Under the pieces are notes generated by a model, which worked only from the letters and a program-made list of their open reading frames with translations, was not told the DNA's origin and did not search any database. Positions 13,899-21,191 of a DNA stretch of 64,000 nucleotides are shown one piece after another. Positions within the stretch are counted from its first letter, which is position 1. Each line of letters starts with the position of its first letter. The stretch comes from Candidatus Celerinatantimonas neptuna. Lineage in GTDB: Bacteria > Pseudomonadota > Gammaproteobacteria > Enterobacterales > Celerinatantimonadaceae. The translations under genes and the position numbers were made by a program. Location of the stretch: assembly GCA_911810475.1 (NCBI GenBank), contig OU461276.1:3783501-3847500 (forward strand). Reading direction: 5' to 3'.

Positions 13899-14981
13899 CT
13901 ATTCATTGATATAAGTTCTTTTCACCCGGGGAGCCAACTGAATTAACAGTTCATAACCAATGGTTCCTACCCGTTCTGCAATTTGTTCAACAGGGTTTTG
14001 TGGACCCCATAAAATGACCTGGTCCCCTACACTGTCTTTAGTGTCAGCGCCCAAATCAACCGTTAACATATCCATCGATACACGCCCGACCAGAGGTACA
14101 ATACGACCATTGATCCATACCGGAGTTCCCGAAGGCATTGATCGCGGATAGCCATCGCCATATCCCATTGCAACAACGCCTATTTTAGTATCTTCAGAAG
14201 CATGCCAATTTGCTCCATATCCGACAGGTTCTCCTTGCAAATGAGAACGAACAGCAATCAATTGAGAACGCAATGTCATAACCGGCTGAATCCCTTCATC
14301 TTGCCCACAGCGCCCACTCATTGGCGAAACACCATACATCGCGATCCCCGGACGAGCTTTATCAAAACAAATATCAGGACGAGTCAGTAATGCAGCAGAA
14401 TTAGCAAGACTTTTAGGGCCATTAAATGGTGCGGTTACTTCTTTAAAACAAGCTAATTGTTTATCCGTTTGTGGATCTTGTGGTTCATCCGCCAATGAAA
14501 GGTGACTCACAAATCCGACAGGAAATTGAACGGCAGGCAGAGCAGATAAAATCTCATGTCGACTCGCAACTTCATGCGGATAAAATCCAAGCCGGTGCAT
14601 GCCTGTATCAATCTTCATCCACAATTTTATAGATTGAGCTTGCGAAAGCATTTTTAGCCAACTAATTTGAACGTCATTTTGTACAACAGGCTCTAAATGA
14701 TGCTGCGCGGCCTCTATGGTTTCCTCCTGACTGAAACACCCTTCAAGCAAAATAATTGGTTTTTCAATACCATTCTTACGTAAAATCAGGGCTTCTTCCA
14801 GGCGAGCCACCGCAAAACCATCCGCCTGTTTGTTTAATGTCCTTGCGACCTTAATTGCTCCATGCCCATAAGCATCACCTTTCACAACCGCAATCATTCC
14901 ACTTCCAGGCTGCTTTTTAGCCAAAAAAGATAAGTTGTTTTTCAGCGCCATCAAATCGATAACGGCCTCAGCTGTGATCAT
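13899..14981 (-). CDS. alr: Alanine racemase
   Basis: A PLP enzyme interconverting L- and D-alanine, supplying D-Ala for peptidoglycan or, in DadX-type enzymes, catabolising it. It has 360 residues from the ATG at 14981, chosen because GGAG lies 6 bases upstream; an ATG four codons earlier lacks a site. The PLP lysine is K34 in AVVKGDAYGHG. The substrate-site Tyr lies in ARPGIAMYGVSP, and RVSMDMLTVDLG and IGYELL are family landmarks. The gene is divergent from the D-amino-acid operon that starts 900 bp away. Which of alr or dadX it is cannot be settled here. Confidence 0.93.
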   Translation of the reverse strand: MITAEAVIDLMALKNNLSFLAKKQPGSGMIAVVKGDAYGHGAIKVARTLNKQADGFAVARLEEALILRKNGIEKPIILLEGCFSQEETIEAAQHHLEPVVQNDVQISWLKMLSQAQSIKLWMKIDTGMHRLGFYPHEVASRHEILSALPAVQFPVGFVSHLSLADEPQDPQTDKQLACFKEVTAPFNGPKSLANSAALLTRPDICFDKARPGIAMYGVSPMSGRCGQDEGIQPVMTLRSQLIAVRSHLQGEPVGYGANWHASEDTKIGVVAMGYGDGYPRSMPSGTPVWINGRIVPLVGRVSMDMLTVDLGADTKDSVGDQVILWGPQNPVEQIAERVGTIGYELLIQLAPRVKRTYINE

Positions 14982-15877
14982 GTAAGACTCCAATGTATAA
15001 AAACTTTTTCCTAAATTTTAATTGTTCAAGATAGAGCCAGAGGGTTTACTTCAAAAGTATATATTTGTTAAAACAAACAGTATTGATGTTCTTCTTATGC
15101 TCTGTTTGCAATGACCAACCACTCACAACCATCCGTCTCTTACAATAAAAATGCAGATCCATTTACCAATATTTAAACAGCTATTGATTGTGGCCCGCTA
15201 TATCAAAATAAACACTTTGATATTACCACACGGTATGGGTAACCAATGCTATCCAATTGATTCTCTCTAAAAAACAGCAAATAACAGACCAGATAAATAT
15301 GAGTATTTTCAATTAAAAATAAAACAGCATCATAAACCATTAATTTTCTCATAATCAGTTTATATCACTACATTAATTCTATGTTTTTTGAATATTCTCT
15401 GAAATTACCAACGTTACAGAAGACACCATATTATTAAATTTAAGTTAATTTTTATCCATTACGCACTATAATAATGCCCTGTTTTATTAAAAATGCACTA
15501 TTATTGATCATTGTGTGAGTTTTTTATTTTTCTGATTGTATATTTATGCTCTTAATGCAATAAAATATGCAAAAATATGATTCAGTTTAAAATTTCATTT
15601 ATTTTAATAAATCTAGATAAATAATCTAGACAAAAACAATTCAAAAATATAAAACTTTAATGAATGATGAAATACGATGTCATTAAGCTTACGTTGATTT
15701 AATCCAACGACCTGATAAATCGGGATCTTAGGTAAATTGTCACATTTATTGCTAGGTTTTCCATTACCATTTCATTGATGTGAAAAAGAACAAAACGGAT
15801 ACTTCTGTTCATTGTTCTTTTTTAGAAACTATGACGGATAAAGCAACTATATATCCGTATTTTACAAGGATCTTTCT
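14982..15877. other. Long AT-rich intergenic region between alr and the dgcN operon
   Basis: Nearly 900 bp without a convincing coding frame in either strand. It must hold the divergent promoters of alr and dgcN. The right half is extremely AT-rich. I find no tRNA, terminator with U-tract or long inverted repeat. AAGGA at 15866-15870 is the ribosome site of dgcN. Confidence 0.4.
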
Positions 15878-16879
15878 ATGGAAATTCAAAAGCCTTACTT
15901 ACTTTTTTTGGGCGATGCCCACGATGCATTAGCCGCAAAAGTTGCCCAAGGTATCAAACAGTGGCATCCAGAATATTGTGTGGGGCAATATCGAATGGAA
16001 GGCTGTAAAGCTGATTGTGAATTACCAGATCTCGATATTGCTGCCGCTAAAAAAGCTGGAGTGAAAACACTGGTTATTGGTGTAGCCAACCGTGGCGGTA
16101 TTATTTCAGAACAATGGATCAAAGTATTAAAAGAAGCACTCAGTCAAGGACTCGATTTAGCAGCCGGGCTTCATAATCGTTTAAATGATATTCCTGAGCT
16201 TGTTGAACTGGCCAAACAAAATGGTCGCTCAATGTTTGATGTCCGCTTCCCAACCCAGGATTTTCCTGTCGCTTCAGGAAAAAAACGAAGTGGAAAACGA
16301 GCACTGCCTGTTGGTACCGACTGCTCTGTTGGTAAAATGTATACGGCCCTTGCGATCACTAAAGAACTTGAATCCAGAAATATCCCTGCTGATTTTCGCG
16401 CAACCGGCCAAACCGGTATTCTAGTTAGTGGTGCTGGTGTTTCTATTGATTCAGTCGTATCCGATTTTATCTCTGGCGCTGTTGAAGAATTATCTCCAAC
16501 GAATACTGATGATCATTGGGATGTGATTGAAGGCCAGGGTTCATTATTTCACCCTTCATTTGCGGGTGTCACCACAGGGATCATTCACGGATCGCAGGCT
16601 GACGCATTGATTTTATGCCATGAGCCAACAAGAACTCACATGCGGGGAACGCCTGAATATACAGTACCTGATCTGGGCGAATGTATGGCTTTAAATTTAT
16701 CTATGGCTAAATTAACCAATCCCAATGCTAAGTTTGTCGGTATTTCCGTCAACACATCGAAACTGAGCGAAAAAGATGCCGAAGATCTAATGGAAACCAT
16801 CGAAGCAGAATATGGATTACCTGTTGTCGATCCATTCCGTCAGGGTGTCGCCCGTATTGTCGATCAGATGCTTGCTTAG
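15878..16879 (+). CDS. dgcN: DUF1611 P-loop protein, DgcN-like (D-glutamate N-acetyltransferase candidate)
   Basis: A 333-residue DUF1611-family protein: an N-terminal domain of about 130 residues, then a P-loop-like C-terminal domain with GTDCSVGKM near residue 146. It also contains the conserved segments RATGQTGI, EGQGSLFHPSF and LCHEPTRTHMRG. In the described DgcN-DgcA pathway for D-glutamate use, DgcN is reported to acetylate D-Glu before DgcA racemises the product. This assignment rests on the DUF1611 family plus the adjacent dgcA-like gene 15 bp downstream. Older annotations call such proteins NAD-dependent epimerase-like. A good AAGGA site precedes the ATG. Confidence 0.75.
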   Translation: MEIQKPYLLFLGDAHDALAAKVAQGIKQWHPEYCVGQYRMEGCKADCELPDLDIAAAKKAGVKTLVIGVANRGGIISEQWIKVLKEALSQGLDLAAGLHNRLNDIPELVELAKQNGRSMFDVRFPTQDFPVASGKKRSGKRALPVGTDCSVGKMYTALAITKELESRNIPADFRATGQTGILVSGAGVSIDSVVSDFISGAVEELSPTNTDDHWDVIEGQGSLFHPSFAGVTTGIIHGSQADALILCHEPTRTHMRGTPEYTVPDLGECMALNLSMAKLTNPNAKFVGISVNTSKLSEKDAEDLMETIEAEYGLPVVDPFRQGVARIVDQMLA

Positions 16880-16894
16880 AAACTGGGAGTTGTC

Positions 16895-17872
16895 ATGCAA
16901 TTACAAATCTATCAACAGAGTTGGCCAATTGACGGCGTTTTTGCAATCTCCCGGGGGTCCAGAACCGAGGCAAAAGTTATTCTTGTCGAATTATCTGAAG
17001 GTGGTTTCACCGGTCGGGGCGAATGTGTCCCTTATGCCAGATATAATGAAACGCTTGATAGCGTGACAACTCAGATAAATAATCTCACTTCGGCACTCGA
17101 TAATGAATTAACCCGGGATGAACTAGCAAATTTACTTCAGCCAGGAGCGGCACGTAATGCTCTAGACTGCGCATTGTGGGATTTAGAATGTAAACGCAGA
17201 GGCCAGTCAATCTGGTCAATACTCGGTATCACACCAAAGCCACTGACGACAGCCTACACGCTTTCGCTAGACACACCCGAAAACATGCAACAAAAAGTAA
17301 TCCAGCACAGGGAACGCCCACTGTTTAAACTTAAATTAGCAGGTCAAGGTGATCTGGAACGAGTAAGTGCAGTTCGCCAGGGTGCTCCAAACGCTCGAAT
17401 TATTGTTGATGCAAACGAAGGCTGGGACGAACATATCTACCGTCAGATCGTTCCCGAACTGGTAAAACTCAACGTTGAGATGATTGAACAACCTTTACCC
17501 GCTAAAGACGATTATATCCTTGAAAAACTCGAACACCCTATTCCACTGTGTGCAGATGAATCATGCCATGTTAGCAGCGATCTTCCCCGGCTTATTGGTC
17601 GTTATGAGATGATTAATATCAAAGTGGATAAAGCCGGCGGGCTCACAGAAGCTTTGATTCTCAAAGAGAAAGCGCAACAAGTGGGTTTGGATATCATGGT
17701 TGGTTGTATGCTGGGGACTTCGTTATCGATGGCTCCGGCATTTGTCGCTGCACAAAGCGCTAAAGTTGTTGATTTGGACGGTCCATTATTACTCTCTGAA
17801 GATCGCCCAAATGGCTTTAAATTCTCAAAACAGAGTGAAATGCAGCTACTGAAGCCGCAACTCTGGGGTTAA
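16895..17872 (+). CDS. dgcA: Enolase-superfamily epimerase, DgcA-like (N-acetyl-D-Glu racemase / dipeptide epimerase family)
   Basis: A 325-residue enolase-superfamily enzyme of the muconate-lactonising / dipeptide epimerase subgroup. It has the paired lysines of KLKLAG near residues 146-148. The three metal ligands follow in VDANEGW, MIEQPLP and CADES, then the opposite catalytic lysine in IKVDKAGGL. These residues fit a 1,1-proton transfer that inverts an amino-acid alpha carbon. In the DgcN-DgcA system the substrate is N-acetyl-D-glutamate. By sequence alone, L-Ala-D/L-Glu dipeptide epimerase (YcjG type) is the alternative. The dgcN neighbour favours the former. GGGAG precedes the ATG. Confidence 0.75.
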   Translation: MQLQIYQQSWPIDGVFAISRGSRTEAKVILVELSEGGFTGRGECVPYARYNETLDSVTTQINNLTSALDNELTRDELANLLQPGAARNALDCALWDLECKRRGQSIWSILGITPKPLTTAYTLSLDTPENMQQKVIQHRERPLFKLKLAGQGDLERVSAVRQGAPNARIIVDANEGWDEHIYRQIVPELVKLNVEMIEQPLPAKDDYILEKLEHPIPLCADESCHVSSDLPRLIGRYEMINIKVDKAGGLTEALILKEKAQQVGLDIMVGCMLGTSLSMAPAFVAAQSAKVVDLDGPLLLSEDRPNGFKFSKQSEMQLLKPQLWG

Positions 17873-17899
17873 CCCCCCTTGAAAACAAGGAAAAATTCA

Positions 17900-18757
17900 A
17901 TGAACCGCATCGTTTATATAAATGGCGAATATATTAATGAACATGATGCCCGCGTATCTATTTTTGATCGCGGCTTCTTATTCGCCGATGCTGTCTATGA
18001 AGTGACAGCAGTCGTTAATAGCAAATTAATTGACAATGACGGACATATGGCCCGTTTGAGCCGTTCATGCAATGAACTCGAACTAAATTTACCGGTTTCA
18101 ACCGATGAAATTACCCATATACAAGAAGAGCTAATTCGCCTGAACCAGCTTGAAGAAGGTGGTATTTATCTTCAGCTGTCTCGGGGCTCTGAAGGTGATA
18201 GAGATTTTGCTTACCCCAAAGATACACAACCAACTCTGGTGTTATTTACTCAGTCCCGCTCTTTAATTAACAGCCCGAAAGCAAAAAAAGGAATGAAAGT
18301 TGTCACAATCGAAGACATTCGCTGGCATCGTCGGGACATTAAAACAGTCCAGTTATTAGCTCCTTGTATGGCAAAACAGTATGCGCTGACGCATGGCTAT
18401 GACGATGCATGGCTCACAGAAGATGGCTACATTACTGAAGGTAGCTCAAACAATGCCTATATTGTTACCGATGAACAAACTGTTGTAACCCGCCCACTAA
18501 GCAATGCAATTCTTCACGGGATAACCCGTAAAGCACTGTTGAAATTAGCAGCTGAAGACAATATAAAAATCGAAGAACGGCTATTCACACCAGAAGAAGC
18601 AATGAAAGCTAAGGAAGCTTTTATCAGCTCTGCAACAACTTTTGTCTACCCGGTCATCGAAATCAACGATCAGAAAATAGGTAATGGTAAACCAGGCCCG
18701 ATTGCCGAAAGATTAAGACAAATTTATATTGAATTGGCACTGAGTCAGTCTGCATAA
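17900..18757 (+). CDS. dat: Class IV aminotransferase, D-amino acid transaminase type
   Basis: A 285-residue fold-type IV PLP aminotransferase. It resembles D-amino acid transaminase: YINGEYINEHDARVSIFDRGFLFADAVYE at the N-terminus (partly quoted in family alignments), the PLP lysine K148 in RDIKTVQLL, and EGSSNNAYIV for phosphate binding. It should move the amino group between D-amino acids and 2-oxo acids, making or using D-glutamate. The ATG at 17900 has AAGGA 8 bases upstream; a TTG at 17879 is less likely. It is 27 bases after dgcA, so it is the third gene of the operon. Confidence 0.85.
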   Translation: MNRIVYINGEYINEHDARVSIFDRGFLFADAVYEVTAVVNSKLIDNDGHMARLSRSCNELELNLPVSTDEITHIQEELIRLNQLEEGGIYLQLSRGSEGDRDFAYPKDTQPTLVLFTQSRSLINSPKAKKGMKVVTIEDIRWHRRDIKTVQLLAPCMAKQYALTHGYDDAWLTEDGYITEGSSNNAYIVTDEQTVVTRPLSNAILHGITRKALLKLAAEDNIKIEERLFTPEEAMKAKEAFISSATTFVYPVIEINDQKIGNGKPGPIAERLRQIYIELALSQSA

Positions 18758-18963: not shown

Positions 18964-18988
18964 ATACAGCACCATCTCGGTGCTGTAT
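18964..18988 (+). other. Perfect hairpin upstream of the 436-residue gene
   Basis: A 10-bp perfect stem (18964-18973 with 18979-18988, core CAGCACC) with a 5-nt loop lies 24 bases before the ATG at 19013. There is no U-tract, so it could be a weak end to the dgcN operon transcript or a hairpin in the leader of the next gene. Confidence 0.45.
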
Positions 18989-19012: not shown

Positions 19013-20323
19013 ATGTCTGTATTATCTCCCTCCAGTATTTTTACATCACTTCAACAGGAAGGACCATTTGCAGTCCGCAAATCGGCTATTCAGCCCCATC
19101 CGTTTTCACCGTCAGTCCGCCAATGGGTCAAAGATCTTCGTAAAGATAGCAACCATATTTCTAAATACAGGGCGCTACGCAGTCAGCTCTTTGAATTTCT
19201 TGGAATTGAATGTTTTGCTGAAATTGACCAACTCTTACATGATCCACAACTAAAGCATGAGCGTTCCCAGCGGGCCTTACATCTATTGGGAAATATGTTT
19301 GGGATCTCAGGGACGCTTAAAGAAATTGAAGATCGCGTTCATGAATATGCTCGTACTGCAGACACTGTAATCCATTCTCTAAAGGATAAAATCCTCTCAC
19401 CTTATGCTTCATTCATTGAAACGACCAACGAGATCGAAATGGCTAATAATCCCATTGAGCTCATTTTGATCATGTTCGATGACCATTATCACAAAAAAGC
19501 CCGTTTTGAAGCTCGCCGAAAACTGACACTAATGACCCTGGCCGGAAGTATTGATCAACGTGAACGAGAAACAGAGATAGCAAACAAATTTGCTAATTTT
19601 CTTGCATTTCTGAACAGTTATGTATGGAGCCCTGATTTAAAAATCGGAGAACTCGACCCGGTTTATCTTCATTCAGAACATTCATCCGACGATTTTCACT
19701 GTATTAATGTACAGGTTCTTCTTCCACCAGAAGCAGAGCAACACCAACCAACACCAGGAGAAAAACTCACACTACTTAAACGACGCCGGTTTACGATTGG
19801 TGAACGCCGAATTCCTATTTATGTATCTATTCGGAAAAAACCCCCTGAAGCAAAGGTATTAAAACTACTGAGGAAAAATGAAAAGAATCCAGCCATCGCT
19901 GTGGATGATGAATTGGGATTAATGGCTGTATTAGATAATGTCAGTGACATAAAACTCTTCCAGCAACATCTAACACGCAGTGCAGCACAGGCAAATTCTC
20001 TGATGGTTCTGGAGGATATTTCTGATACGCTTACTGAAAGCAGTATCTACCATGGCCAAGCAGTTGGATCAAGCAAGCAAACACCCATGCTTAAATTTTT
20101 TGCGCGTCTTGGGGGGATGCGGGTCGAACTGATTATCCACACAAACCAGACCTGGCTAAATTATATGTATCAGCAAGATGTTGCGCATAATGAATATGAA
20201 GTAAAACGTATTTTCGATTCAGGAGTGATCGAATTATTATTTCCCCATGACATTTTTCATCTCGATCATCAGAAAACTCGCCAGGAGATGATCCGTTTTT
20301 TCCGAAAACAAATCGAAAGCTAA
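19013..20323 (+). CDS. Protein of unknown function, 436 residues
   Basis: Not recognised. The frame is long, has normal codon use, and has GAAGAG upstream of the ATG, so it is very likely real. There is no signal peptide and no membrane helix. The protein is soluble and highly charged. The middle (ANNPIELILIMFDDHYHKKARFEARRKLTLM) looks helical, and a basic patch LTLLKRRRFTIGERRIPIYVSIRKK follows. The C-terminal third alternates strands and helices (RVELIIHTNQTWLNYMYQ). No catalytic motif is evident. It precedes the AraC regulator by 76 bp but is probably transcribed separately. Confidence 0.7.
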   Translation: MSVLSPSSIFTSLQQEGPFAVRKSAIQPHPFSPSVRQWVKDLRKDSNHISKYRALRSQLFEFLGIECFAEIDQLLHDPQLKHERSQRALHLLGNMFGISGTLKEIEDRVHEYARTADTVIHSLKDKILSPYASFIETTNEIEMANNPIELILIMFDDHYHKKARFEARRKLTLMTLAGSIDQRERETEIANKFANFLAFLNSYVWSPDLKIGELDPVYLHSEHSSDDFHCINVQVLLPPEAEQHQPTPGEKLTLLKRRRFTIGERRIPIYVSIRKKPPEAKVLKLLRKNEKNPAIAVDDELGLMAVLDNVSDIKLFQQHLTRSAAQANSLMVLEDISDTLTESSIYHGQAVGSSKQTPMLKFFARLGGMRVELIIHTNQTWLNYMYQQDVAHNEYEVKRIFDSGVIELLFPHDIFHLDHQKTRQEMIRFFRKQIES

Positions 20324-20399: not shown

Positions 20400-21191
20400 A
20401 TGCCTTATCAAGTTGAACCTGTAGAACTACAGGCCTTAACTCAACAGGCCTGTTTACATAGCCACGATCACCATCAAATTGTGCTCGGATTACAAGGCTA
20501 TACTGAATTTACAATTGATGGGATTCAAAATAAAGTATCCAAAGGCCAGGGTGTTATGGTAACAGCCGGAAGCGCTCATAAATTTCGCGGAACAAAGCAA
20601 AACAAAATTCTGGTATTCAACCTTCCCCTGAAAAATCACTTCTTTTCAACCGACATATACCAACGAATTCTACCATTATTAAGTAACCCAGGTTATTTTC
20701 AGCTTGATCAACAAATACAAAATGTCATCACCCGTCTTGCTATTGAAATCAGCCATCACCCATATGACACATTACTTAAACGTGCCTGTGGTGATACACT
20801 TTTGTGCCTACTTGAGCACCATTTTTTACCGATTTACCAGAACATCAATAATAAAAACAGCCATAAAAAATTTAATCTGGAATTATTGAATCAATATGTA
20901 ACCAGTCGTCTCGAAGAAACCATCACCGTAGCAAACCTTGCCAGCCATGTTTTTTTAGGGGAAAGTCAATTCTATGCCCGTTTTAAACGGCAAACAGGGA
21001 AAACACCTCTTCGATATGTCACAGGACTACGTATTGAACATGCAAAAACACTATTGGTTGAGAGTGAAGAAAGACTTGAGCAAGTCGCCTATCATTGTGG
21101 TTTCGCCAGTCAAAGTAGCTTTACGCATGTTTTCAGACGACTCACCGGCTATTCTCCTGGCCAATATCGAAAGACCCAATTTTCATCTTAA
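20400..21191 (+). CDS. AraC-family transcriptional regulator, probable proline-utilisation activator (PutR-like)
   Basis: A 263-residue regulator. The N-terminal 90 residues look like a cupin sensor (HDHHQIVLGLQGYTEFTIDG, then GQGVMVTAGSAHKF). The C-terminal 100 residues carry two helix-turn-helix motifs ending in the AraC signature VAYHCGFASQSSFTHVFRRLTGYSPGQYR. It lies 150 bp upstream of putA in the same orientation. In Vibrio an AraC-type regulator, PutR, activates putA/putP, so a similar role is inferred. The PutA here has no DNA-binding domain of its own, which makes a separate regulator more plausible. Confidence 0.85.
   Translation: MPYQVEPVELQALTQQACLHSHDHHQIVLGLQGYTEFTIDGIQNKVSKGQGVMVTAGSAHKFRGTKQNKILVFNLPLKNHFFSTDIYQRILPLLSNPGYFQLDQQIQNVITRLAIEISHHPYDTLLKRACGDTLLCLLEHHFLPIYQNINNKNSHKKFNLELLNQYVTSRLEETITVANLASHVFLGESQFYARFKRQTGKTPLRYVTGLRIEHAKTLLVESEERLEQVAYHCGFASQSSFTHVFRRLTGYSPGQYRKTQFSS

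Follow-up and report, generated by a model that had tools for sequence, protein, structure and literature searches.

Why does a gene for a D-amino-acid transaminase (DAT) directly follow a gene pair that is predicted to acetylate and racemize D-glutamate (D-Glu)? The question is posed by a locus of Candidatus Celerinatantimonas neptuna, a gammaproteobacterium of the order Enterobacterales, located in a stretch of 64,000 nucleotides (assembly GCA_911810475.1, contig OU461276.1, positions 3,783,501 to 3,847,500; hereafter the window). There, the plus strand carries dgcN (15878-16879), dgcA (16895-17872) and dat (17900-18757) one after the other, separated by 15 and 27 bases; the products have 333, 325 and 285 amino acids, respectively. 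Coordinates and strands thus bore out the layout which a first reading of the bare letters (the sequence-only reading) had described. We propose, with a probability of roughly 0.6, that the trio is one transcription unit which disposes of D-amino acids via D-Glu and that DAT feeds DgcN and DgcA.

The gene identities of the sequence-only reading (a DUF1611 protein as DgcN, an enolase-superfamily enzyme as DgcA, a D-amino-acid transaminase and an alanine racemase, alr) were all confirmed by scores above NCBI family cut-offs. DgcN matched the NCBIfam DgcN equivalog NF041892 over the entire profile (1-326 of 326) with 547.5 bits at a cut-off of 480. It also has Pfam DUF1611_N and DUF1611_C matches and a solved relative, PDB 7xrj (E 3.2e-128). 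DgcA reached 485 bits with the racemase_DgcA equivalog NF042940 (cut-off 400, profile 1-323 of 323). Because both proteins pass equivalog models, DgcN is predicted to be a D-glutamate N-acetyltransferase and DgcA an N-acetyl-D-glutamate racemase; the reactions are taken from published work on relatives. In the literature the names DgcN and DgcA are also in use for unrelated diguanylate cyclases.

Could DgcA instead epimerize murein dipeptides as an L-Ala-D/L-Glu epimerase, which would make the locus one for murein peptides? Its solved relatives are PDB 4gfi and the E. coli epimerase 1jpd (E 2.6e-84), and with the epimerase model PRK15129 it scored 336.9, just under the cut-off of 343. Furthermore, the two models overlap. 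The DgcA cut-off was passed by 10 of 10 scanned relatives and the epimerase cut-off, too, by 3 of these (L017, L019, L022); L019 is a trio locus, thus the models separate the two activities poorly. Yet the score of the window protein is far above the DgcA cut-off, and no peptidase or peptide importer was present among the scanned neighbours of the trio. The paralogue DgcA2 from a second dgcN-dgcA pair of the same genome is the more epimerase-like enzyme, at 392.5 under the DgcA cut-off of 400 and at 357.6 over that for the epimerase. An epimerase in the window was kept as a minor rival which we consider very improbable.

The third protein was assigned to the PRK06680 subfamily (NF005209, 389.3 bits, cut-off 320). 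It fails the model of canonical D-amino-acid aminotransferases (DAATs), TIGR01121, with 236.9 versus 277.45; its solved relatives are Bacillus-type DAATs. Published DAAT motif tables, as contained in excerpts of PMC8401098 and PMC10671532, were used for comparison. Like the canonical DAAT from Bacillus sp. YM-1, the window DAT retains FxxxxYxV (Met replaces Phe in 31 of 59 trio loci), YxQ and a lysine at the catalytic, pyridoxal-phosphate-binding place; the arginine of the O-pocket loop is kept as well. Lys148, Arg101 and Phe103 were invariant in the 59 trio loci. In contrast to the canonical enzyme, His100 is replaced by Phe (RxF instead of RxH) in 59/59 and Lys35 by Ala or Ser in 56/59, by Ala in the window. 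As all four DATs in the set which are unlinked or without dgcA carry RxF, this loop marks the PRK06680 subfamily, not the operon. The genome contains three class IV transaminases; dat of the window codes for the sole DAT, the others are IlvE and PabC.

What might the three enzymes accomplish jointly? DAT would transfer the amino group mainly of D-alanine (D-Ala), and of other D-amino acids, onto 2-oxoglutarate, yielding D-Glu and 2-oxo acids. DgcN would then use acetyl-CoA to form N-acetyl-D-Glu, an essentially irreversible reaction that would pull the reversible transamination, and DgcA would racemize the product to N-acetyl-L-Glu. Finally, L-Glu would be released by an enzyme encoded elsewhere, either ArgE or another M20 deacetylase, or N-acetyl-L-Glu would enter arginine synthesis. 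We infer co-transcription, the direction and the substrates of DAT, and the last step. The statement of the sequence-only reading that DgcN and DgcA return D-Glu to L-Glu had to be amended: the end product would be N-acetyl-L-Glu, and the operon contains no deacetylase. One ArgE-type candidate (TIGR01892, 345.8 over 297.7; PRK05111, 245.2 under 460) was among seven scanned of eight M20 matches in the genome; its activity on N-acetyl-L-Glu is predicted at most. The suggestion that the transaminase funnels D-Ala and other D-amino acids into D-Glu is probably right as far as the link is concerned, since DAT is the natural connection between D-Ala and D-Glu and the trio is conserved; the direction of transamination is only inferred. 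The DadA model NF001933 retrieved nothing over the cut-off from the genome (best 47.5 of 383). Therefore, the role commonly played by D-Ala dehydrogenase may fall to DAT.

The window pair resembles the DgcN-DgcA D-glutamate catabolic pathway in that both genes are adjacent, on one strand and in the same order, and in that both products satisfy the equivalog models. It differs by the additional transaminase and by the divergent alr. The founding system reportedly has a regulator, DgcR. Between alr and dgcN we saw no open reading frame of at least 90 amino acids, and from alr to dat no regulator; the nearest one seen is of the AraC type (20400-21191), and the genome was not searched for DgcR. 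According to the available part of PMC12363236, dgcN is the key gene of an irreversible racemization pathway for acidic D-amino acids and their amides, which comes at considerable energetic cost. Growth on D-Glu and D-Ala is recorded for a Rhodobacteraceae strain with DAT, EC 2.3.1.312 and EC 5.1.1.25; in the excerpt at hand the enzymes were not linked with each other (PMC11747546). The literature searched, which did not include the founding DgcN/DgcA paper, gave no account of a coupling of DAT to DgcN and DgcA. Overall, the locus appears to be an ordinary, well-conserved operon of a recently described pathway, and the likely link from DAT to DgcN and DgcA is its one plausible extension.

The argument is carried mainly by conservation, and the trio did recur in related genomes, for which the sequence-only reading had proposed a search. 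Using tblastn we examined the best 80 of at least 586 named DgcN loci; they had been ranked against a profile headed by the window protein, a choice that favours its type. dgcA was located downstream in 76/80, dat in 52/80, and all three genes were present in 51/80, these belonging to Gamma- and Alphaproteobacteria. In 42 of the 51 the distance from dgcA to dat was at most 200 bp. Nine have a wider gap; the gene in between, scanned in three of these, was an open reading frame without a Pfam match in two and a dihydroxy-acid dehydratase in one. Among the wide-gap trio loci is that of Ruegeria pomeroyi SZCCDBG043 (L112). Among the loci examined the trio was frequent in Rhodobacterales and scattered through Gammaproteobacteria. 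When the own genome and 40 relatives were compared, the genomes with a DAT of at least 70% identity proved to be precisely the 4 of 41 with a DgcN of at least 72%; among the next-best DATs (E up to 1e-40) identity did not exceed 37%. A second set, 274 genomes from across the class with the own genome among them, was not chosen by DgcN. At E up to 1e-80 it contained dat in 10 genomes, DgcN in 11 and both in 9 (hypergeometric P 2.6e-14, kinship ignored and own genome counted). Seven of these nine have dat and DgcN side by side, about 1 kb apart, which leaves room for one dgcA; G056 and G205 possess DgcN without dat.

A quick tree of 100 DgcN rows placed all 60 DAT-linked ones within 68 rows under one starred branch. 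The DAT-linkage label changed 5 times on this tree (at least 3 changes forced by starred branches) versus 31.8 times in shuffles, and the window DgcN belongs to a gammaproteobacterial set (support 83) whose 16 members are all DAT-linked. DgcN and DAT distances over 59 trio loci correlated with r 0.84; 0 of 2000 permutations were as high. The recurrence of the trio in the named loci and the shared occurrence in 4 of 41 genomes indicate that dgcN-dgcA-dat is a conserved unit and that the grouping is not due to chance. In plasmid searches, 81 records contained DgcN relatives and 142 contained DAT relatives, and four stretches were examined. The Vibrio tritonius plasmid pMA35 and the megaplasmid of Ruegeria sp. 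TM1040 carry the annotated trio in the same order and on one strand as in the window. With a published DgcN/DgcA route and public records that already annotate the trio, the arrangement is less novel.

A number of points speak against DAT as a feeder of DgcN and DgcA. dat is missing in 28 of the 80 named loci, 3 of which end less than 2 kb from dgcN. Genes for DATs of the PRK06680 type exist away from dgcN (G295, G309) or without DgcN (G187), and beside other kinds of genes: argininosuccinate synthase and HolC in G187, a LUD-domain and a HAD protein in G295, UPF0176 and a GAF protein in G309. Common descent could by itself account for the correlation of DgcN and DAT distances, and the quick DgcN tree leaves 41 of its 97 inner branches open. 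In Acerihabitans arboris (L046:8001-9867) dat comes directly after dgcN without a dgcA in between, the best DgcA homologue elsewhere being 47% identical. In a relative of the same family (L018:8846-9819) dgcA is split into two open reading frames in different frames; otherwise this trio is intact. Because DAT is devoid of two canonical DAAT residues (His100 to Phe, Lys35 to Ala), its substrates are not certain, and most DAT-linked loci have no alr nearby. Hardest to explain is the cost, as Alr, DAT and MurI already permit conversion of D-Glu to L-Glu without acetyl-CoA. Most likely, acetylation would be worth its price by making the flow one-way.

Does the divergent alr tell us about the substrate of DAT? 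The gene (13899-14993, minus strand; TIGR00492, 383.3 bits, cut-off 168) has its likely start at ATG 14981 behind GGAG. From there 896 bases extend to dgcN, or 884 if counted from TTG, so that the 900 bp of the sequence-only reading became about 890 bp. alr is the single Ala_racemase_C match of the genome, which indicates a housekeeping enzyme serving the wall; a catabolic second alanine racemase was ruled out for the same reason. A homologue of alr was divergent within about 4 kb in at least 8 of 60 DAT-linked loci (the window, L016, L018, L045, L057, L063, L161 and L159, the last at 34% identity), a lower bound because a few of the 60 loci end early upstream. In three of these (L018, L063, L161) a sodium:alanine symporter gene is located between alr and dgcN. 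Plasmid pMA35 of V. tritonius shares the divergent alr with the window; it differs by a sodium:alanine symporter between alr and dgcN, which the window lacks. The arrangement of divergent alr and alanine symporter is a hint, not proof, that D-Ala is a donor for DAT. The sequence-only reading had given alr too much weight as a partner, considering that it is the only alanine racemase gene and is found beside 8 of 60 DAT-linked loci.

The same neighbourhood allows another interpretation, i.e. DAT on the one hand and DgcN with DgcA on the other would be parallel exits for D-Glu. DAT would pass the nitrogen of D-Glu to pyruvate, the divergent Alr would convert the resulting D-Ala to L-alanine, and DgcN and DgcA would take the rest; D-Glu would be the substrate, not an intermediate. 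The eight loci with alr would fit, the DAT branch would not have the cost of acetyl-CoA, and DAATs can run well in this direction. Excerpts of two reports on distantly related non-canonical DAATs state that D-Glu was the best amino donor of Halhy DAAT (PMC8401098) and that kcat/Km of BlasaTA was higher for D-Glu plus pyruvate than for D-Ala plus 2-oxoglutarate (PMC10671532). However, the pairing of a reversible transaminase with an irreversible acetylation points to D-Glu being pulled rather than shared. In addition, the rarity of alr near dat in the trio loci argues against parallel exits, and with no second racemase found in the genome, the position of alr need not be functional. We regard parallel exits as unlikely and prefer DAT as a supplier of DgcN and DgcA.

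The divergent intergenic region (14994-15877, no strand assigned) is A+T-rich (27% G+C) and presumably the control region. With the same-genus relative it shares short blocks only, and no conserved element was found. At gathering scores Rfam had no match in the window. Promoter-like sites (22 found versus 22.6 expected) and ArgR-box-like sites (82 found versus 79 expected by shuffles) were not enriched.

Might the operon serve the cell wall rather than nutrition? The genome encodes MurI (203.9 bits, cut-off 146.65). Its presence means that DAT is not needed for making D-Glu, and DAT as the main source of D-Glu for the wall was rejected. Yet DAT together with DgcN and DgcA could be an overflow valve that balances the D-Ala and D-Glu pools of the wall and prevents D-amino-acid toxicity, with nutrition being secondary. 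The joint presence of MurI, Alr and DAT, and a trio which itself has no transporter, would agree with that. The patchy spread of DgcN in the class-wide sample (11 of 274 genomes) fits an accessory catabolic trait better. Further, in Shewanella psychrophila WP2 transcript levels led the authors to judge DgcN-DgcA as very likely the main route for D-Glu (PMC10845958, in the excerpt available). Such an overflow valve appears improbable, and we return to a catabolic operon fed by DAT.

The second dgcN-dgcA pair of the genome (G000:C1:1734370 onwards; L015:8371-19782) has a different company. DgcN2 scored 506 bits, over the DgcN cut-off; the counterpart of DgcA2 in the same-genus relative (L017) passes both the DgcA and the epimerase cut-off. 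Downstream follow genes for a Gsi-like peptide ABC importer, an S58 peptidase, an M55 D-aminopeptidase, an isoaspartyl peptidase and a LysR regulator, and dat is absent. Almost the same layout exists in L017 and on the Enterobacter hormaechei plasmid pEh25_5 (L163). These peptide-linked loci have dgcN beside a dgcA-family gene in common with the window; they are distinguished by the Gsi-like importer, an S58/P1 peptidase, the M55 D-aminopeptidase, the missing dat and a separate DgcN clade. Peptidoglycan salvage, which the sequence-only reading had ascribed to the trio, found no support at the trio locus; peptide importer and D-aminopeptidase sit at the other copy. A third kind of neighbourhood is present on a Sphingobium plasmid, where LysR, dgcN, dgcA and a dicarboxylate symporter form a row.

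Tentatively, dgcN-dgcA may be a general irreversible drain for D-Glu to which lineages attach their own suppliers. D-Ala would enter through DAT (accompanied in vibrios by alr and an alanine symporter), D-peptides through a peptide importer, a D-aminopeptidase and an epimerase-like DgcA, and free D-Glu through a dicarboxylate carrier; the window organism and its same-genus relative would run two modules, each with its own DgcN and DgcA paralogues. Of the 25 loci that have dgcA and lack dat, 10 were sampled with one neighbour each. The neighbours were GGDEF proteins in four cases, and otherwise a guanylate-cyclase-domain protein, another enolase-family protein, PrpF, a hexapeptide transferase, a weak Asp/Glu/hydantoin racemase match and a protein without a family. 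This revealed no consistent feeder and therefore counts against the drain as a general rule. The GGDEF proteins are encoded just downstream of dgcA in L060, L073, L083 and L110 (Thalassospira, Caenispirillum).

In the sea, D-amino acids hold a large amount of organic nitrogen that turns over slowly. Should DAT feed DgcN and DgcA, a single three-gene operon would funnel D-Ala and other D-amino acids via D-Glu into central metabolism. Metagenomic counts of dgcN would then report more than the use of D-Glu.

A plausible ribosome-binding site precedes each of dgcN, dgcA and dat, and no terminator-like site was detected in the dgcN-dgcA or the dgcA-dat gap. For dat the mechanical open reading frame begins upstream, at TTG 17879; we prefer ATG 17900, which is preceded by an AAGGA-type ribosome-binding site and on which the 27-base gap and the length of 285 amino acids are based. 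Between dat and the next gene, a perfect inverted repeat (18964-18988, arms of 10, loop of 5, no T run after it) possibly is the transcript end. The outer genes have other functions. To the left these are GreB, KDG kinase and a GGACT-family protein. To the right a 436-amino-acid protein (19013-20323) is followed by the AraC-type regulator and, beyond it, by an open reading frame of 1035 amino acids which from its sequence we take to be PutA. Elsewhere, in G187, the genome without DgcN, dat comes directly after the gene for argininosuccinate synthase (L151:4271-6335). Up to an E of 0.001 neither Pfam nor NCBIfam matched the 436-amino-acid protein; the same-genus relative has a version with 82% identity, again between dat and an AraC-type gene.

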